DNA of 64,000 nucleotides from NCBI GenBank assembly GCA_026710945.1, contig JAPOQA010000013.1:1-64000 (forward strand), given 5' to 3'. Below the pieces are notes generated by a model. That model was not told the DNA's origin, did no database searches, and saw only the letters and a program-made list of their open reading frames with translations. The stretch's first letter is position 1. The number at the start of each line of letters is the position of its first letter. This document shows, piece after piece, positions 41,594 through 53,456 of this stretch. The DNA comes from Chloroflexota bacterium. GTDB lineage: Bacteria > Chloroflexota > UBA11872 > VXOZ01. A program made the position numbers and the translations under genes.

Positions 41594-41640
41594 GAGCACC
41601 CAATACCTCGCCAAGCGGCGGGAGTGCTGGGTGCTCTGTT
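41594..41640 (+). terminator. Terminator after the substrate-binding protein gene
   Basis: GAGCACCCA (41594-41602) and TGGGTGCTC (41628-41636) form a 9-bp stem with partial inner pairing, followed by TGTTATTCTTG. It lies about 70 bp past the stop codon and separates this gene from the DUF3604 gene. Confidence 0.65.
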
Positions 41641-41723
41641 ATTCTTGTCAGCAGCCTGTAGGAGAAGATTCTTGTGAGGCACGATTTCAATTTTGGCATT
41701 TGGATCAGGTGAGGAGTGAAATA

Positions 41724-43274
41724 GTGACCGCCGCAGAATTCGACCCCAACCTCATTCGGCTGCCGCTGGACTACCAGGGAACACCGGAGCTAGCGGAAAT
41801 CCGCGTGACCGTGCCCAGCATAGTGCCGCCGGACGTGAGCAACGGCGAATTCGCGATCGGCCTTGAGTTGCGGGATAGGTGGGGGTTCCACCTGCCGCAG
41901 CAGAGCGCCCACCTGGTACTTTCCATAGAGGGAGCAAGCGGTGAGGTCCCGGCAGATGTGCCTATGTTGCCGGAGTACGACAGCCATCATGCTGTGCGGG
42001 GTGCGGTTGCGGAGAAAGATCGGGTCTTTCGCGTGCGCGCGCGAGATCGCGAGACCGGCATCGAAGCCGTCAGCAATCCGGCCTGGGCGCCTGCGTTCAT
42101 GTACAAAGGCGACCACAAGCTCTACTGGGGCGACCTGCACTGTCACCGTCTGGAGAATCCCAGCCGCAAGCGCACCGATCCCCTCCTGTGGAGCTACGGG
42201 CCTGCCACTGTAGATGAAGTGTACAGATTTGCCCGCGACGTGGTGCACTTGGACTTCACGGCGCTGACCGACCACGACTACGCGCTAAGCACGGACGAAT
42301 GGCGCGAAATACAAGAAGGCGCGGAGTACTTCAACCAACCGGAGCGATTCGTAACGCTGCTGGGTTACGAGTGGTCGTGGAACCGGGGTCCGGACGCCGA
42401 CTGCGGCCACCGCAACGTGATCTTCCGCCACGGCGACATGCCGCTCATCTCCAGCAACTGGAAGGGCTCCAATACTCCCCAAGACCTCTTCAACGTCTTC
42501 AGAAGCCTTTCCCGAACCGGCAGGGACATTCTTTCGATACCCCATCACCCCGCCCGCCTGGGCAATCGCATCTGGCACAATTGGGAGACCATGGACCCGG
42601 AGTTCGAGCGTCTGATGGAAGTTTACAGCCATTGGGGCAGCAGCGAGCACGAGGGCGAGCCCTACGCCCTCAAGGGGAGGAATGAACGGACGCAATGGGA
42701 CGAGCCTCAAGCGGAGTATCCTCCTTTCGAGGCCACTGGACATTTCTTGCAGGATGGGCTGCGGCAAGGATTTCGGTTTGGCTTCGTGGGAGGCAGCGAG
42801 AGTCACGACGGCCGTCCCACGAGCAGCGTGCAGATTGCACACTTGCCCATTAAGCTGACGACCTTCAACCACCACGCCGGCATGACGGGTCTCTGGTCGC
42901 GCCGCCGCGAGCGCGACGCCATGTTCAGTTCGCTCTGGAACCGCCGCGCCATTGGCACCACCGGTGTGCGCATTTACCTAGACTTCAGTGTGGACAACCA
43001 GCCCATGGGCGAGACGATCAGTGTGCAAACGCCGCCCAAACAGATGCGCGTGCGCGTGCACGGCACCGCGCCGCTTGCCAAGGTTGTCGTGGTCAAGAAC
43101 AATCACGACTGGCATGTGGTTGAGAAGCCCGGCTGGGAGTGCGTCTTCTCGTTGGATGACATGGAAATGCCCCAAGACCGTGCCGACTGGTACTACGTGC
43201 GGGTAACGCAGGAAGACGGCGAGATGGCGTGGTCGAGCCCCATTTGGATTGAGGACGCCCGCCGCGTCTTCTAA
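41724..43274 (+). CDS. DUF3604 PHP-like metallohydrolase
   Basis: The 516-residue protein has an N-terminal beta-rich region (1-130) and a PHP-like domain. Metal motifs are seen in LYWGDLHCH, DFTALTDHDY, LLGYEWSWN, SIPHHPA and GFVGGSESHDGRPTS, all intact. DUF3604/CehA-McbA-like proteins are predicted phosphodiesterases or esterases; the substrate is unknown. The GTG start has GAGGAG 7 bases upstream. An in-frame extension to 41631 would begin inside the terminator stem and is rejected. It lacks a signal peptide. Two diverged relatives follow. Confidence 0.85.
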   Translation: MTAAEFDPNLIRLPLDYQGTPELAEIRVTVPSIVPPDVSNGEFAIGLELRDRWGFHLPQQSAHLVLSIEGASGEVPADVPMLPEYDSHHAVRGAVAEKDRVFRVRARDRETGIEAVSNPAWAPAFMYKGDHKLYWGDLHCHRLENPSRKRTDPLLWSYGPATVDEVYRFARDVVHLDFTALTDHDYALSTDEWREIQEGAEYFNQPERFVTLLGYEWSWNRGPDADCGHRNVIFRHGDMPLISSNWKGSNTPQDLFNVFRSLSRTGRDILSIPHHPARLGNRIWHNWETMDPEFERLMEVYSHWGSSEHEGEPYALKGRNERTQWDEPQAEYPPFEATGHFLQDGLRQGFRFGFVGGSESHDGRPTSSVQIAHLPIKLTTFNHHAGMTGLWSRRRERDAMFSSLWNRRAIGTTGVRIYLDFSVDNQPMGETISVQTPPKQMRVRVHGTAPLAKVVVVKNNHDWHVVEKPGWECVFSLDDMEMPQDRADWYYVRVTQEDGEMAWSSPIWIEDARRVF

Positions 43275-43915
43275 GCAATTTACGCAGCTTGCCCTCTGAA
43301 CGTTGGCGATATTCATTCAGGTGGATGGGAATTCCGTCGTTTGTATGTTGAATGAGTCCTACAGATGAGCGAAGGTGCGAGGGTAGCGCGAGGGACGCGT
43401 CGTCCTTAATTCCGGCGCAAGCCGGAATCCATCTTCACTTTCCCTCAACCACACTTCACCACTGAATCTTCAGCCCTCATGCTCACGCACAGGAGCGGGG
43501 GACAAGCCCCCGCGCTACGGCGGAAGCGGAGAACATCGGCCATTCCCGTGTAAACGCGCCCCCGTGCGGGGACGCGGAATCCATCTTCTCCGTTTCATGC
43601 TGTGCCTGCACGTTTTCAAGCGTGGGCTTGCAGTCCTGCGTAGGGGCGGTTCGCGAACCGCCCCTACAACTTGTGTGGCCTGAGCAAGGCCATGGTGATT
43701 CCCGTGATAACGGGAATCCATCTTCTCCGTCTTATGCTGTTCCTGCATGCTTCGTAAGCGTGGCGATGCAATCCTGCGTAAGGGCGGTTCGCGAACCGCC
43801 CCTACAACTGGCAATATGCAAAAGCGCCCTGCGGCATGCTGTGATACGATACCGCAGGGCAATAGCGCCGAATTCAAGGGAATTCAAGCAGTTGGATGAA
43901 AGGTGGCGGTGAGTA
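43275..43915. repeat. Dense repeat region before the tandem DUF3604 pair
   Basis: The gap holds one copy of a 177-bp composite (43342-43518; the partner is at 50402-50578) and a ~96-bp direct duplication (43576-43671 and 43713-43809). Both copies of the duplication end in a 28-bp palindrome centred on TTCGCGAA (43640-43667 perfect, 43778-43805 with one mismatch). A 9-bp hairpin GCCCTGCGG/CCGCAGGGC (43826-43860) follows. No gene is supported. Confidence 0.75.
43640..43667. repeat. 28-bp perfect palindrome
   Basis: Each 14-base half is the exact reverse complement of the other, centred on TTCG|CGAA. A second copy lies 138 bp downstream and a third near 40040. This is the pattern of REP-like elements. 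Confidence 0.9.
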
Positions 43916-45730
43916 ATGTCTGCGAGTGCCAACGGACGGTTTCAGGTTAGTGCGGAAGGACTGCTGCAGGTTGCGGAGACTGTGGCTCTGAAGTTGCACT
44001 ACACGCCTCCTGCTGGCGGCATGCAGTCCGGTGGCAACCTCTGGTTTTTCTACGACATCCGTCAGTTTGGCGATCGCAGGCACGCATTTGAAGCATCGGG
44101 CGGCATCACTGTCGAGGGGCCGGCTGGAACTTCCTGGGAAGCAGAGGCGCTCGTCAACGGCGGCACGGTGCGGACGTTTGATATTCATCCTCCAGCACCC
44201 GAATTCCTCCATGCGGTGCACGTGAGGTGCGCTAGCGGTTCGGTCGCGGCAGGCGAGCAGATTGCCGTAGAGCTGCGCAGCGTACCCGAGGGCTTCCTAT
44301 TACCGGTAAATGCCATCGACTCCTTCCGCTTCTGGTTGGTGGAAGACTTGGCTGGAGAACTTGAGCTATACCATCCCGACCGCGAAAAATATCACTACTT
44401 TCTACCGCGTGAGACGAAACTCTCGGTTTTGGAGAGTAACCCGCTCACGATTACTGCCGCCGAACCGGCTGTGCTCCAAGTGACCACTCCCTCTCTTGCC
44501 GCGGGACAAGCAACGACCCGGGTCGTCGTTACGGATAGGTTTGGCAATCCTGTCCACGACCCGGAAGGTGAAGTTGCCCTGCGTACCGGCAGTGGTGAGA
44601 CAACTGCTGCACTCAATTCTTTCAGCGCTGAGGGTACGGTGCAGGTGCAGGGTCCTGCCGATCGTGTAACGGCGGCATACGGGGACATCCAGGCCGTGAG
44701 CAATCCGGTGCGCGTTGACAAAGACACCGAGCCGTACACGCTCTATTGGGGAGACCCCCACGGCATGCTCTTCAACCAGCGCCCGATTGTCGAGCACTTC
44801 GCATGGGGCAAGGACGTAAACGATCTCGACTTCGCAGGGGGCCAGCTCTTTTCCTACAGCATCTGCATAAGCGAGAAATGGGAAGAATTGCAGGACGCAT
44901 GGAAGAAGTATGATCTACCGGGCGAATTCGTCGCCTTGCCGTCGGCGGAATTCGCCACCGGTCCCGACGGCAGTCACCGTCACGGCTTCTTCCCCGCGCC
45001 TGAGGGCCAGCCGCCGGTCTTCTGTGAGGACCGCCCCGCGGCCAACGACCCCAAACTGCACGCCCGGTACCATCCCGATACCGTTTACTGCAACGACTAT
45101 CAAGAGTTCTATCGGGAAATGAAACGGCGGGGCGCGCTCATTCACGGTCACTTTCACACCCACTTCTACGTGCAGGAACACCTGGCCGAGATCTACCAGA
45201 AGCAGCAGACAGACGGTGTTACGGAAGAGGAAAAGATAAACCAATTCCTGATGCGGGGCGTCAGGCTCGGCATTGTCAGCGGAAGCGACACGCACGACAA
45301 CCGGCCCGCGAACCCCTATAAGGAACCGGGGCCGTCCGGCCCGGCCGGACTGACGGGAGTGTGGGCGGAGCGGCTGGATAGGCCCACACTGTTCGATGCG
45401 CTCTTCAACCGGCGCTGCTACGCCACCACCGGCGTGCGCATCATCGTGGACTTCCGTGTGAACGACAGTTGGATAGGCTCCACGGTAAAGTCCGACGGCT
45501 TTGGCTTTACTGCCGACGTCGTCGGGACTGAAGACATCGAGCAGATTGACCTGGTGGTAAACGGAGACACGGCCAAGAGCTACACACCCAATCGGCAGCA
45601 CGTGCAGTTGGAGGACGAGGTACCATTGCGGTTTTCGCCGGTTGGCGCCAACTACTGCTACTTGCGTGTGCGGCAAGTGGACGGCAACCGCGCATGGACG
45701 AGCCCGGTCTGGTTGGAGACCCTGGCCTAG
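43916..45730 (+). CDS. DUF3604-related protein, tandem paralogue A
   Basis: The 604-residue protein has an N-terminal beta-sandwich-like half (NLWFFYDIRQ, WEAEALVNGG, RVVVTDRFGNPVHD, with invasin/Ig-like spacing) and a DUF3604-like C-terminal half. The PHP motif I is changed to LYWGDPHGML and motif II (TDHD) is replaced by DFAGGQLFSYS. Later motifs HGHFHTHF and GSDTHDNRPAN are kept. The metal site is therefore altered, and activity may differ from the 41.7-kb gene. No signal peptide is visible. A GGTGGCGGTGAGT region precedes the ATG, with a moderate ribosome site. The next gene is a close copy (roughly 70% identical by eye). Confidence 0.8.
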   Translation: MSASANGRFQVSAEGLLQVAETVALKLHYTPPAGGMQSGGNLWFFYDIRQFGDRRHAFEASGGITVEGPAGTSWEAEALVNGGTVRTFDIHPPAPEFLHAVHVRCASGSVAAGEQIAVELRSVPEGFLLPVNAIDSFRFWLVEDLAGELELYHPDREKYHYFLPRETKLSVLESNPLTITAAEPAVLQVTTPSLAAGQATTRVVVTDRFGNPVHDPEGEVALRTGSGETTAALNSFSAEGTVQVQGPADRVTAAYGDIQAVSNPVRVDKDTEPYTLYWGDPHGMLFNQRPIVEHFAWGKDVNDLDFAGGQLFSYSICISEKWEELQDAWKKYDLPGEFVALPSAEFATGPDGSHRHGFFPAPEGQPPVFCEDRPAANDPKLHARYHPDTVYCNDYQEFYREMKRRGALIHGHFHTHFYVQEHLAEIYQKQQTDGVTEEEKINQFLMRGVRLGIVSGSDTHDNRPANPYKEPGPSGPAGLTGVWAERLDRPTLFDALFNRRCYATTGVRIIVDFRVNDSWIGSTVKSDGFGFTADVVGTEDIEQIDLVVNGDTAKSYTPNRQHVQLEDEVPLRFSPVGANYCYLRVRQVDGNRAWTSPVWLETLA

Positions 45731-46022: not shown

Positions 46023-47870
46023 ATGTCTTTGGGGCAGAGCGGGCGCTTCCGGGTCAGTGTGGACGGCCCGCTGCGAGTTGCTGAAACAGTCACGCTGCAG
46101 CTTCACTACTCGCCGCCGGCGGGCGGCCTGCAAGCGGGTGGGAATCTCTGGTTCTTCTTCGACATTCGCCAGCTTGACGAGTGGGTGCTCAACTTCACTT
46201 GGCCGGACTCAATTACGGTGCAAGGTCCGGCGGGATCGGCCTGGGAGGCCGAGGCGCTCGTTAATGGCGGCGTGGTGCGGACGTTTGATATTCATGCTCC
46301 GGTGCCTGAATTCCTCCACGTGGTGCACGTGACATGCGTTGCGGGCGCAGTGATGGAGGCAGAGCGTGTTACGGTGCAACTGCGCACTGCCCCTGACGGC
46401 TTCCTGCTCCCCCGCAATGCCATCGACGCCTTCCGCTTCTGGCTGGTCGAGGACCCGTCCGGTGAGCTTACGTTTTACCACCCGGAACGCGACAAACACC
46501 ACTACTTCCTGCCGCGTGACGCGGAACTCTCCTTACTGGAGAGTCATCCCCTCACCATCAAGGAGGCTGAACCGGCGGCGCTGCAAGTAACCACGCCTTC
46601 GCATACCACGGGGCAAGCGGCCACGCGCGTCGTCGTCACCGATAGGTTTGGCAATCCGGTACGCGATGCCCAGGGAGAGGTGACCTTACGGTCCGGCAAT
46701 GGCGAAACAACGGTTACGCTCAGCTCGTTTAGCGCCGCAGGGACGATTCCCGTGCGGGGGCCGGTTGACTGTGTTACGGCGTCGTATCGGGGCATCGAGG
46801 CGGTGAGCAACCCGGTGCGGGTGGCAGAGGAGCCGCCGCCCCTCTCGCTCTATTGGGGCGATCCCCACGGCATGCTCTTCAGCCAGCGCCCCATTGTCGA
46901 TCACTTTGCCTGGGGCAAAGATGTGAATGACCTCGACTTTGCCGGCGGCCAGTTGTTCTCCTACAGTATTTCTATTGAAGAAACGTGGGAAAAGCTCCAG
47001 GATGCGTGGCAACAGTACGACCTGCCCGGGGAGTTCGTCGCGCTGCCTTCGGCGGAATTCGGCACCACTCCCGACGGGAGTCACCGCCATGCGTTCTTCC
47101 CGGAGATTGCGGGACAGCCGCCGGTGTTCTGCGAAGATCGGCCTGCGGCGCACGATCCGAAACTCCAGGCGCGTTTTCACCCGGATACGGTCTTCTGCAA
47201 AGACTATCAAGAGTTCTATCGCGAAATGAAGCGCCGGGGCGCGCTAATGCACGGTCACTTCCATACGCACTTCTACGTCCAGGAACATCTGGCGGAGATA
47301 TTTCAGAAGCAGAGAACGGACGGCGAGGTGGAAGAGGAGAAGATCAACCAGTACCTGATGCAAGGCGTGAAGCTCGGCTTCGTGAGCGGGAGCGATACCC
47401 ACGACAGCCGACCCGCCAATCCCTACCGGGAACCGGGCCCGCTGACCGGTGTGGCCGGGCTCACCGGTGCCTGGGCGGAACGGTTAGACAAACCGTCAAT
47501 CTTCGACGCGCTCTTCAACCGGCGCTGCTACGCCACCAGCGGCGTGCGCATGATCGTTGATTTTCGCGTGAACGGCGCGCGGATGGGCTCCACAGTGCAG
47601 GCGGACCGCTTTGGCTTTACGGCGGACGTGGTGGGTACGGCGGACATCGAACAGATCGACCTGGTTGTGAATGGCGACACGGTCAGAAGCTATGCGCCCC
47701 GGCAACAGCACGTGAAGTTGGAGGACGAGGTGCCATTGTGGTACTCACCGATGGATGTCCACTACTGCTACCTGCGCGTGCGGCAGCAGGACGGCAACCG
47801 GGCGTGGACGAGCCCGATCTGGCTGGAGCCGTCTGTCACTCGGCGAAAGCCGGTGTCTAGCGGTAGCTAG
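46023..47870 (+). CDS. DUF3604-related protein, tandem paralogue B
   Basis: The 615-residue protein is collinear with paralogue A across its whole length. It shares NLWFFFDIRQ, WEAEALVNGG, YHPERDKHHYFLPRD, LYWGDPHGML, DFAGGQLFSYS, HGHFHTHFYVQEH and GSDTHDSRPANPY. The same PHP-like positions are altered in both, so the change predates the duplication. An AAGGAGCGGAGACG site precedes the ATG. Being unequal copies in direct orientation, the two could recombine. A short, divergent tail of about 15 residues distinguishes it. Confidence 0.8.
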   Translation: MSLGQSGRFRVSVDGPLRVAETVTLQLHYSPPAGGLQAGGNLWFFFDIRQLDEWVLNFTWPDSITVQGPAGSAWEAEALVNGGVVRTFDIHAPVPEFLHVVHVTCVAGAVMEAERVTVQLRTAPDGFLLPRNAIDAFRFWLVEDPSGELTFYHPERDKHHYFLPRDAELSLLESHPLTIKEAEPAALQVTTPSHTTGQAATRVVVTDRFGNPVRDAQGEVTLRSGNGETTVTLSSFSAAGTIPVRGPVDCVTASYRGIEAVSNPVRVAEEPPPLSLYWGDPHGMLFSQRPIVDHFAWGKDVNDLDFAGGQLFSYSISIEETWEKLQDAWQQYDLPGEFVALPSAEFGTTPDGSHRHAFFPEIAGQPPVFCEDRPAAHDPKLQARFHPDTVFCKDYQEFYREMKRRGALMHGHFHTHFYVQEHLAEIFQKQRTDGEVEEEKINQYLMQGVKLGFVSGSDTHDSRPANPYREPGPLTGVAGLTGAWAERLDKPSIFDALFNRRCYATSGVRMIVDFRVNGARMGSTVQADRFGFTADVVGTADIEQIDLVVNGDTVRSYAPRQQHVKLEDEVPLWYSPMDVHYCYLRVRQQDGNRAWTSPIWLEPSVTRRKPVSSGS

Positions 47871-47911: not shown

Positions 47912-48988
47912 ATGGAAGAAATCGAGGTATGGGCAATTGAAGGATCTCAGGCAGTGCCTATTGAGCGGGCGGAGATGGACTTGGAGAGCAGTCTGGAGGA
48001 CACGCTCGTCGCACACCCGGACATGTTGTTGCCTAATCTAAAGCTGGTAGGCCGGCAAACGCCGGTCGGCGACGGGAATCTCGATTTACTCGGCGTAGAT
48101 GGTGAAGGCAAGCTTGCTGTATTCGAGCTAAAGCGCGGCACGTTATCCCGAGACGCTGTGTCCCAGGTGATAGACTATGCCTCCGCCCTCGAAGCTATGA
48201 GCGAAAGTGATCTATCCGGGCTTATTTCCGGTAACTCTGGTCAAGACGGCATTGAAAGGATTGAGGACTTCGTGGAGTGGTATCGGGAAGGGTTCAGGGG
48301 ATCATTGGACTCTTTACGACCACTGAGTATGTACCTCGTTGGCCTGGGAACTGATGATACCACTAGGCGCATGGTGGACTACCTGTCTGAACATGGCGTG
48401 GATGTATCCCTTCTGACTTTCTATGGATTTGCATACTCGGGCAAGACCCTGCTAGCCAAGCAGGTGCAAGCAGCCCCTGTCGTACCACAGCATCCATCAC
48501 GAGAGGAGCGAATGCGATTGCTTGAGAGTCTCGCAACGGATATGGGCGTAGCCGACCTTATGGCTGCGGCAAGAAATATGTTCTCTAGTTCCTGGGACAA
48601 AGTGACTCAGGGGAGGTACTCGTCTCCCCCGTATCCAGAGCCAACAAAGACTGGGATAACTTACTACTTGTCAAAACCAAGTGAATCGGGGACATACTCC
48701 TACCCCGCCTTCTCGTCCATCCAATTGGAAAAAGGGAAGCGAGCAATCAAGGTGCGGTTCTACCCGCGTGCTATTGAACTATGCATTGAGAAGTTTAACC
48801 AACTGGATCCAGAGAAGATCCCGTTTGAGAAACAACCCCCCCGCCATGCAGCCCCAACGGATCGAGTGAAAGAGGAGATTCTATTCCCCTTGCATTCACT
48901 CGACGATTGGGAGGCGCGCAAATCCAAATTAAGTGAACTTACGCGAGCTACCTTTGAGGGTTGGATGGACGAAGAAGAGAGTCAGTAG
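47912..48988 (+). CDS. NucS/DUF91-like endonuclease
   Basis: The 358-residue protein has the NucS-type nuclease core near residues 25-75. LESSLEDTLVAHPDMLLPNL is followed by GDGNLDLLGVDGEGKLAVFELKRG, giving the Asp and Glu-x-Lys residues of the RecB/PD-(D/E)XK-like site. The C-terminal half (GITYYLSKPSESGTY, KVRFYPRAIELCIEKF) resembles a DUF5655-type binding region, less certainly. NucS enzymes cut mismatched or branched DNA. Local base composition looks lower in GC than the neighbours, suggesting acquisition. It has no partner gene; GAGGAAC precedes the ATG. Confidence 0.8.
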   Translation: MEEIEVWAIEGSQAVPIERAEMDLESSLEDTLVAHPDMLLPNLKLVGRQTPVGDGNLDLLGVDGEGKLAVFELKRGTLSRDAVSQVIDYASALEAMSESDLSGLISGNSGQDGIERIEDFVEWYREGFRGSLDSLRPLSMYLVGLGTDDTTRRMVDYLSEHGVDVSLLTFYGFAYSGKTLLAKQVQAAPVVPQHPSREERMRLLESLATDMGVADLMAAARNMFSSSWDKVTQGRYSSPPYPEPTKTGITYYLSKPSESGTYSYPAFSSIQLEKGKRAIKVRFYPRAIELCIEKFNQLDPEKIPFEKQPPRHAAPTDRVKEEILFPLHSLDDWEARKSKLSELTRATFEGWMDEEESQ

Positions 48989-50812: not shown

Positions 50813-52153
50813 ATGGCCATAGCCGAGAAGCAAAGCGGCGTGCTGCCGGAGGGCGTGCGTGAGCCGTACGACTGGGCCCTCGACCAGATGCGAGTCAGAG
50901 AGGCCCATGCCATTACGCAGGGCAGTCCTGACGTAATCGTGGCGGTGATAGACCTGGGCTATCGTTTTCATCCCGACCATGAGGGTCACCTGTGGGTCAA
51001 TCCACGCCCCACGCGGGGCGACGTGCACGGCTGGGACTTTGCCGAGGAAGACGCCACACTTGAATATGAAGGGTCGCGCTCGGACACGATGTATCATCGC
51101 GGTCACCACGCGTTTGTCGTGGGCGAAGTAGCCGCGACGGCGCCCAAGTGCCCAATCATGGTACTGCGCGTCGGGTACGAACCGCACCACCAAAAGAGTT
51201 GGCCGCGCGCCGTGCGCTATGCGGTCGATCACGGCGCCAAGGTGCTCGTGATGCCCCATGGCTACATCACTCTAGACCACACGGACGGCGTCCCGTTGTT
51301 CTACAAGGGCACCGACTTCAGCTATCCCTACGACAATATCGGCCTGATCGAGGCGCTGGACTACGCCTACCAATCTGGCTGCCTGGTTTTCAAAGGCACG
51401 GCGGACAACCGCGGTAGGCGGGTAGCAACCGTAAATGCCGGCGTTGACAGCGTCTTTGCCGTCGGTTCGACGAACCGGCATGGTCAAGCGGCGAACATCG
51501 CGGCATCGGCAGACTACGTGGAGGCGGCCACGCCCGGCGGCGAACGCAATACGGACGACCCAACGGAATCCGTTTGGGGAACCGGCGGCGACCTCGAATA
51601 CATTCCCTTCGAGGGCGGGTGCATGGCGTCCGCCTTTGGCGGCGGCGTCGCGGCGCTGGCGTTCTCGCGCTATCCGCACCTTTCCAACGTGGAGATTCGA
51701 CAGATTCTGCGCAATACGTCGCAGGGATCCGGCTGGGACCCGTTGCTTGGACATGGCATCTTCGATGCCTACGGGGCAGTTTCGCTCACGCCGCAGGAGT
51801 TGTCGCCGGGATTGCGGATTGACACGGAGGCATCACGCGTACGCCGGGAAGATGGGCGGCTGCTGGCTGATATCGTAGTGGAGAATACCGGCGCATTCGA
51901 TGTCGCTCGGATGCTTGCAGTCGCCTTCAATGGCGACCCGAAAACTGCTGCCGACGCCGATGCCACTCGCGAGGAGTCGAACATCCTGATCTGGCGGCAA
52001 ATTGGGCATTGCATTGCGCCGGTGCCTGGTCTGGAGCGAGTCTCGGTCTCGCTGGAGTTGAAAGACGACACGCAGCCGGAAGAGGTCTGGGTGCAGGTAA
52101 ACCCGCTGGATCTGGGCATGGCGGGCGTCTACGACTCGGCGCGGATATCTTAG
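50813..52153 (+). CDS. Subtilase (S8)-family protein with Cys at the nucleophile position
   Basis: The 446-residue protein aligns with the subtilisin core: Asp47 in VIDLGYRFHPD, His98 in the HHAFVVGEVAA stretch (equivalent to HGTHVAG), Asn199 in GTADNRG (oxyanion position) and the GTSMASP-equivalent GGCMASA, where Cys270 replaces the Ser. The rest of that helix (FGGGVAAL) is well kept. A C-terminal domain of about 100 residues follows (from 345), rich in beta segments. No signal peptide or propeptide is obvious. It may be a Cys-type protease, an inactive relative or a binding protein. GGAGAG lies upstream of the ATG. Confidence 0.82.
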   Translation: MAIAEKQSGVLPEGVREPYDWALDQMRVREAHAITQGSPDVIVAVIDLGYRFHPDHEGHLWVNPRPTRGDVHGWDFAEEDATLEYEGSRSDTMYHRGHHAFVVGEVAATAPKCPIMVLRVGYEPHHQKSWPRAVRYAVDHGAKVLVMPHGYITLDHTDGVPLFYKGTDFSYPYDNIGLIEALDYAYQSGCLVFKGTADNRGRRVATVNAGVDSVFAVGSTNRHGQAANIAASADYVEAATPGGERNTDDPTESVWGTGGDLEYIPFEGGCMASAFGGGVAALAFSRYPHLSNVEIRQILRNTSQGSGWDPLLGHGIFDAYGAVSLTPQELSPGLRIDTEASRVRREDGRLLADIVVENTGAFDVARMLAVAFNGDPKTAADADATREESNILIWRQIGHCIAPVPGLERVSVSLELKDDTQPEEVWVQVNPLDLGMAGVYDSARIS

Positions 52154-52436: not shown

Positions 52437-53456
52437 ATGAGGATTTCGTCCGTAGAGGTGGCCCCCTGGAAAGACGACGCCAGCTTCGTCTACTCGGTGG
52501 TCTTTGACGAGGGCACCATCGACTGTTTGGCCAACGCGTTCCCCCTCGCGCAGCAGTACGACATTCCCGGAGACGTGGCGGTGGTGGCCGGGCAACTGGG
52601 TGAAAAGCGCCACGTCGAGCGCAGTTCCCTCAACGACTATTTCCACATGGGGCCGGACCACCTTAAGTTTCTTCTGTCGCAGGGTTGGAGCATCAGCAAC
52701 CACAGCTATTGCCATCCGCCGTTGCGCGAACCGGACAGCATCGATTTTGCACAGGAGATCGTGGAGTCCTACCACATCCTGGAACAGGCGCTGGGACAGC
52801 CGGCGCCGATCTTCTCATCGTGGAATAGCTTCGAGGTCTACGACACGGTGCGGGCGTGGGTGCAACGCGTGCCGGGCTATCTCGGTCTGACACGCGCCTC
52901 CAACGATGCGGAACACATAAACCAGCCGGACTTCGATCCGTTCAGCATCTGGCGCAACCGCCTGTGCGAGGACGACGCCATAGCATACCTGCCTCCGTGG
53001 CTCTCGCGCGGCGGGTTCGAGCCGGAGCGCGTTCAGGGGCAGTGGCTCGTAGATGTCACGCACCTGGTCATGTACAAGACGCCGCAGGGACACAAGTGCA
53101 TTTCGCCCTACGCTCTGGAAGGGCGTTTCGACCAGATGCGGACGCTGTTTGGAGAAAACATGTGGGCCGCGAATCCGGACGACGTCGTACGCTATGCCTA
53201 CCTGCGGCGCCACTGCGCACCAGCGGTCACGCAGGATTCGGATACCTATGCCACCATCACGCTGGATTTCCCGCAACTGCCGCTGCAGATTGAGAAGGGT
53301 GAGCTGACGTTCCTCGTCTCCTTTGCTGAAGATCCTGGACCCGTGCACATTCAAGGGCCGGATGGCATTGCAAATGTCACTGCGGCCGGTGAAGGGCGTG
53401 TGCGCTTCACGTGCCATGTACGTGCAGGCGCTGAAATCGTAGTAGCCAACGGATAG
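52437..53456 (+). CDS. Polysaccharide-deacetylase (NodB)-like protein
   Basis: The 339-residue protein shows the NodB-type motif 1 as VFDEG (commonly FDDG), and motif 2 as SNHSYCHPP with the paired histidines. The family's IPGDVAVVAGQ strand follows. Residues after 240 form a beta-rich tail (ITLDFPQLPLQIEKGELTFLVSF). Typical members remove acetyl groups from chitin, peptidoglycan or other glycans using a divalent metal. The substitution of Glu for the second Asp may alter the site. No signal peptide is visible. ATG 52437 has AAGGAG 5 bases upstream; the longer frame from 52380 is not needed. Confidence 0.8.
   Translation: MRISSVEVAPWKDDASFVYSVVFDEGTIDCLANAFPLAQQYDIPGDVAVVAGQLGEKRHVERSSLNDYFHMGPDHLKFLLSQGWSISNHSYCHPPLREPDSIDFAQEIVESYHILEQALGQPAPIFSSWNSFEVYDTVRAWVQRVPGYLGLTRASNDAEHINQPDFDPFSIWRNRLCEDDAIAYLPPWLSRGGFEPERVQGQWLVDVTHLVMYKTPQGHKCISPYALEGRFDQMRTLFGENMWAANPDDVVRYAYLRRHCAPAVTQDSDTYATITLDFPQLPLQIEKGELTFLVSFAEDPGPVHIQGPDGIANVTAAGEGRVRFTCHVRAGAEIVVANG

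Follow-up and report, generated by a model that had tools for sequence, protein, structure and literature searches.

Peptidase family S8 (PF00082), the subtilases such as subtilisin and thermitase, is regarded as a family of serine peptidases, and thiol-subtilisins are regarded as products of the laboratory. The engineered enzymes subtiligase, peptiligase, and omniligase are built on subtilisin BPN' S221C with P225A or another residue at position 225 (PDB 7am3-7am8). In the S221C enzyme the sulphur crowds the site; the P225A substitution brings activity back, and the product is subtiligase (PMC7921005). Among the mutants of a screen, the highly active ones had only Ala or Gly at position 225 (PMC9126251), whereas several other residues also worked there in the M222P/L217H background of peptiligase (PMC7921005). 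Natural subtilases with altered catalytic residues are represented by the CspC/CspA pseudoproteases, which have lost two residues of the triad (PMC6636752). In the open-access literature we found no report of natural Cys subtilases, only of engineered thiol-subtilisins.

Here we analyzed a gene on a 64,000-nucleotide stretch (the window) from a Chloroflexota bacterium (contig JAPOQA010000013.1). Its product is a subtilase-fold (PF00082) protein with Cys at the position of the catalytic Ser, and it probably belongs to a clade of intracellular enzymes, apparently unreported so far, that use this Cys as the nucleophile, as judged from sequence comparison and modeling.

Cysteine occupies the nucleophile position of a natural subtilase

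The Cys-subtilase gene (50813..52153, + strand, ATG at 50813) encodes 446 amino acids and matches PF00082 (Peptidase_S8) with an E value of 9e-15 and 55 bits, against a gathering score of 21.8 bits; every scanned Cys-subtilase member matched the same profile. The subtilase domain covers residues ~18-325 and is followed by a C-terminal beta-sandwich (residues ~331-446). This beta-rich region (51803..52150, + strand), with strands predicted from residue 334 to 445, had no match in a Pfam scan of the protein.

The nucleophile motif EGGCMASAFGGGVAA (51611..51655, + strand) was located by translation and profile alignment and reads E267-GGCMASAFGGGVAA-281, with Cys as codon 270. When the family profile was aligned with subtilisin BPN' structures, Cys270 (TGC, 51620..51622, + strand) fell without a gap on residue 221, and Ala274 (GCC, 51632..51634, + strand) fell on residue 225, where subtilisin has Pro; the segment GGCMASGFAGG thus pairs with GTCMASPHVAG of the S221C subtilisin 1gns. 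A 55-sequence alignment likewise placed Asp47 (50951..50953, + strand) on D32, His98 (51104..51106, + strand) on H64, and Cys270 on S221. Asn199 (51407..51409, + strand) is invariant and was assigned to the oxyanion-hole N155 from the family motif DNRGRR, whose DNRG stands where the oxyanion-hole GNxG sits. The original prediction had put Cys270 at the nucleophile position and listed Asp47, His98, and Asn199 as kept, and both points are borne out by these alignments. It was also right that TGC is a single base away from the Ser codons AGC and TCC, although it had worded this wrongly as a three-base difference.

Because of Cys270 and the lack of Pro at 225, the protein departs from the G-T-S-x-[SA]-x-P signature of the serine peptidase family S8, and we do not file it as a serine peptidase. 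With S8 enzymes it shares a homologous fold and the order of catalytic residues, but it differs from them in its Cys nucleophile, GGC in place of GTS, Ala or Gly in place of Pro225, and the lack of a signal peptide and propeptide.

A sequencing or assembly error, or a misalignment in which a nearby Ser is the true nucleophile, would be the simplest way to dismiss this Cys, and a TGC codon one base from a Ser codon would be compatible with it. We consider this extremely improbable, since 16 other sequences, all from independent assemblies and including 4 from same-genus genomes and 7 from other phyla, have Cys in the same column, in two synonymous codons (TGC or TGT). The alignment is ungapped, and Ser273, the candidate that had been raised as an alternative nucleophile, aligns with Ser224 and is variable among homologues (Ser, Ala, Gly, or Ile). 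The homologue search that had been proposed for this column therefore confirms the Cys assignment against both the error and the nearby Ser.

The Cys proteins form one rare and scattered clade

The original prediction concerned the window protein and did not cover position 225, the paralogue, the family, the absent signal peptide and propeptide, or the deacetylase partner. Two subfamilies could be distinguished in this small family, whose members come from uncultured bacteria, and the Cys is invariant in 17/17 members across them, as is His98. The window's subfamily has 12 sequences, all with Asp, His, Asn, and Cys: orthologues from 4 other Chloroflexota genomes of the same genus are 87-91% identical to the window protein, and 7 relatives outside Chloroflexota, in Armatimonadota (L008, L033, L034, L035) and Kiritimatiellota-type genomes (L009, L031, L032), are 49-54% identical. 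The second subfamily includes a paralogue in the window's own genome (L025:6155-7555, contig C19 of G000) with 32-36% identity, which keeps the Cys, has Glu for the catalytic Asp, and is common to three other genomes of the genus. One Armatimonadota genome also encodes a second-subfamily member (L083:1456-2781, 44% identical to the paralogue). No second-subfamily member was found among 175 genomes from the phylum of the Kiritimatiellae genome, a set without a positive control. In the window's 98%-complete genome, only two PF00082 proteins were found at E <= 1e-8, and both are Cys-subtilases.

When 17 Cys subtilases were placed in a tree with 32 Ser subtilases, they formed one clade with support of 100/97, and removal of the motif columns left this support at 99/93 in a 54-row tree, a bootstrap of 99-100% either way; the Ser rows in both are those fetched by our searches, so that a closer Ser relative may exist elsewhere. 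The family occurred in 1/224 Chloroflexota genera, in 3/388 genomes of the phylum of G102, and in 4/291 of the phylum of G101, and this rarity and scatter over three phyla suggests horizontal transfer. No relatives were found in viral contigs, and matches from plasmid and phage records reached only 22-31%, those with annotation being S8 peptidases. Within the genus, the window gene shows a dN/dS of 0.05-0.09, indicating strong purifying selection.

By NCBIfam, the best match of both subfamilies is the type VII secretion mycosin model (TIGR03921), which the window protein and the paralogue match at 98 and 212.7 bits, well below the equivalog cut-off of 278.75 bits. In contrast to the Cys proteins, mycosins have a Ser nucleophile and are secreted and membrane anchored; we saw no type VII genes among the neighbours examined. 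The second subfamily also gave weak NCBIfam matches to maturation subtilases of the QhpE and PatA/PatG types, which have a Ser nucleophile and dedicated precursor peptides, whereas none was identified for the Cys-subtilases.

Residue 225 parallels the engineered subtiligases

In an alignment made without a motif filter, position 225 of the 17 Cys proteins is Ala in 6 and Gly in 11, while 33/35 Ser homologues have Pro and the other two have Ala or Gly. The association between residues 221 and 225 gave a Fisher p of about 8e-12 for sequences that are not phylogenetically independent; the Cys members share one origin, which leaves the association unreplicated by independent natural origins. The mycosin MycP1 aligned with Ala225 next to a Ser nucleophile, and a small residue at 225 may thus have preceded and permitted the change to Cys. 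Together with the small residues of the two Ser homologues, MycP1 also means that loss of Pro is by itself no proof of adaptation to Cys.

It seems that the closest likeness is to the subtiligase group, with which the Cys-subtilases share Cys221, Ala/Gly225, His, Asn, and the fold, a likeness known from sequence and fold; they differ in being natural, in about 22% identity, in other substrate loops, and in an extra C-terminal domain. The best PDB profile matches of the family are S221C/peptiligase chains. The second-subfamily member L083 reads GGCPAIAH, in which Cys221, Pro222, and Ala225 make up the combination of the engineered M222P peptiligase.

As a separate observation, another Chloroflexota genome encodes a probable pseudo-subtilase (L020; G075:C9:49647-53510) with Ser changed to Ala, His changed to Asn, and Pro225 also lost; a normal Ser subtilase (L015) is encoded about 1.7 kb away.

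Predicted fold, location, and substrate cleft

An AlphaFold2 model built with 36 sequences had a pLDDT of 88.7 and a pTM of 0.89; with 12 close sequences the pLDDT was 67, and it reached 88.7 after the second subfamily and Ser homologues were added. In the model, helix 269-286 carries Cys270 at its N-terminal end, the place that Ser221 takes in subtilisin. Foldseek matched the model to subtilisins at a target TM of about 0.8 and ranked peptiligase 7am3 top; the subtilisins ranked close together, and their order is due in part to the shared Cys.

In the Cys proteins the Asp is preceded by a stretch of only 38-47 residues and the N-terminus is low in hydrophobicity, and neither a signal peptide nor a propeptide was found in them by N-terminal length and hydrophobicity. 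In contrast, most Ser homologues start with a hydrophobic, signal-like segment and have about 120-160 or more residues before the Asp. Judged from this short, non-hydrophobic N-terminus, the Cys enzymes most likely reside in the cytosol and are synthesized without a propeptide; there, we infer, the thiol nucleophile would stay reduced.

Around the active site, the window's subfamily has HHxF instead of HGTH, PHG[YF] instead of the substrate-binding segment SLGG, and the oxyanion Asn within [DE]NRGRR, all invariant or nearly so. The conservation of these motifs argues for one conserved and probably non-generic substrate, and because parts of the canonical substrate cleft are replaced, this substrate may not be a peptide. 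Cys113, the second Cys that is invariant, also occurs in several Ser homologues, and for that reason we dropped the idea that it has a special role.

The original prediction had left open whether the protein is a thiol-type variant or a pseudoprotease. The same cleft changes (HHxF for HGTH, PHGY for SLGG) bear on this choice, as they could mean that Cys replaced Ser after catalysis had been lost, with the protein retained, as CspC is in Clostridioides difficile, for a binding or sensing role. The Glu that replaces Asp32 in the second subfamily is likewise counted against an active thiol enzyme, and Pro225 is lost in the likely pseudo-subtilase L020 too. However, the known pseudoproteases among subtilases are missing two residues of the triad (PMC6636752), while in the window's subfamily Asp, His, Asn, and the nucleophilic Cys are invariant across phyla and residue 225 is always Ala or Gly rather than random. 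CspC and CspA resemble the Cys-subtilases as natural subtilases with altered catalytic residues, but a CspC-like pseudoprotease would have lost catalytic residues without a nucleophilic replacement, whereas the D/H/C triad is complete in the window's subfamily. We therefore regard a pseudoprotease as unlikely; the invariant catalytic residues, the purifying selection, and Ala/Gly225 support the thiol half of the earlier suggestion and disfavor the other. The Cys-subtilases would then probably be active cytosolic thiol enzymes that form an acyl-thioester.

A deacetylase-like partner in most lineages of the window's subfamily

A polysaccharide-deacetylase-like gene of the NodB fold (52437..53456, + strand; PF01522, E 1e-9), without an obvious signal peptide, lies beside the Cys-subtilase gene. 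Alignment of this partner family from three bacterial groups revealed invariant Asp-Glu and His-Ser-x-x-His, which we take to be a NodB-like metal-site pattern whose second Asp is replaced by Glu; no NCBIfam match was found for the family. The deacetylase adjoins the Cys-subtilase in 7/8 lineages of the window's subfamily, again in three bacterial groups: it is present in the window genus (5/5 genomes) and at L045/L008, L046/L009, L040/L031, L041/L032, L042/L033, and L043/L034, with L044/L035 as the sole exception. The order of the two genes varies, and between 0 and about 290 bp separate them.

Other genes recur in some lineages, namely those for URO-D/MtaA-like, Gfo/Idh, DegT, and AraC proteins. 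M14 carboxypeptidase-like genes stand beside the Cys-subtilase of L042 (L042:11799-12941) and near the paralogue (L025:9411-10568), and their products are about 30% identical. We considered a RiPP-like cluster with a precursor encoded between the subtilase and its partner and rejected it, as the gaps are only 0-15 bp in three loci. A role in a defence system was also rejected, since the window Cys-subtilase had no PADLOC match; the paralogue weakly matched a subtilase model.

Several further features of the window were noted. Tandem DUF3604-related proteins of ~600 amino acids, about 76% identical, are encoded at 43916-45730 and 46023-47870 and are conserved in the genus, with a third related copy at 41631-43274. 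A NucS-C-like protein (47912-48988) matches PADLOC PDC-S11 candidate defence models (E 1.5e-32); its versions in two genomes of the genus share only 56% identity, compared with 80-97% for its neighbours. The dispersed palindromic repeat TTCCCGCGAAAGCGGGAATCC and its variants occur at 43410, 43699, 50252, 50470, and 50674, and three of them sit just upstream of the subtilase gene.

Proposed catalysis and the fate of the acyl-thioester

According to our model, the Asp47-His98 pair would activate Cys270, whose thiolate would attack the carbonyl of a dedicated substrate to give an acyl-thioester held in the oxyanion hole by Asn199. In the absence of Pro225 (Ala274), the nucleophile helix could shift and make room for the sulphur, as in subtiligase. 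The acyl group would then pass either to water, as in an amidase or peptidase, or to an amine, as in a transferase or ligase. The substrate is probably small or specialized, considering that SLGG is replaced by an invariant P-H-G and that the Arg-rich DNRGRR lies at the oxyanion hole, and it would belong to the same pathway as that of the partner deacetylase.

For transfer to water, the protein would be a cytosolic cysteine amidase or peptidase that works in series with the deacetylase and cleaves a specific amide bond. The co-occurrence with the deacetylase, the M14 carboxypeptidase-like, M24, and arginase-family genes near some members, and the cytosolic location all fit hydrolysis. Exchange between Ser and Cys is frequent among natural hydrolase families, which also speaks for it. 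On the other hand, few neighbours are common to most lineages, and laboratory thiol-subtilisins are drastically reduced in activity (PMC7921005). Overall, we give such a hydrolase a little less than an even chance.

For transfer to an amine, which would preferentially resolve the acyl-thioester, the protein would be a subtiligase-like natural ligase or transpeptidase for biosynthetic amide joining. Both substitutions that define subtiligase are present, L083 carries the M222P peptiligase combination, some neighbourhoods contain biosynthetic-looking genes (DegT aminotransferase, Gfo/Idh), and thioester intermediates favor aminolysis over hydrolysis (PMC9126251). But the engineered ligase needs activated ester donors, none of which is known for the Cys-subtilases, and many ordinary Cys peptidases hydrolyse well. 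The neighbours include peptidase-like and catabolic genes too, and no precursor-peptide gene was found; in several loci the gap to the partner is too short for one. This assignment is thus tentative and rather doubtful. In its widest form, the whole clade would be natural thiol-subtilisin acyltransferases or ligases that make cytosolic amide bonds through a Cys thioester, with Ala or Gly at 225 for the same reason as in the engineers' enzymes, a possibility that we put forward as a speculative one.

A natural, conserved Cys clade with the compensating change at residue 225 turns the question of how a Ser hydrolase scaffold becomes a Cys enzyme in evolution into a testable one, and the same holds for whether subtilisin scaffolds serve as thioester-based ligases in nature. 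For the development of peptide-ligation enzymes produced without a propeptide, such proteins would be new starting points. The conserved pairing with the deacetylase points to an uncharacterised pathway.
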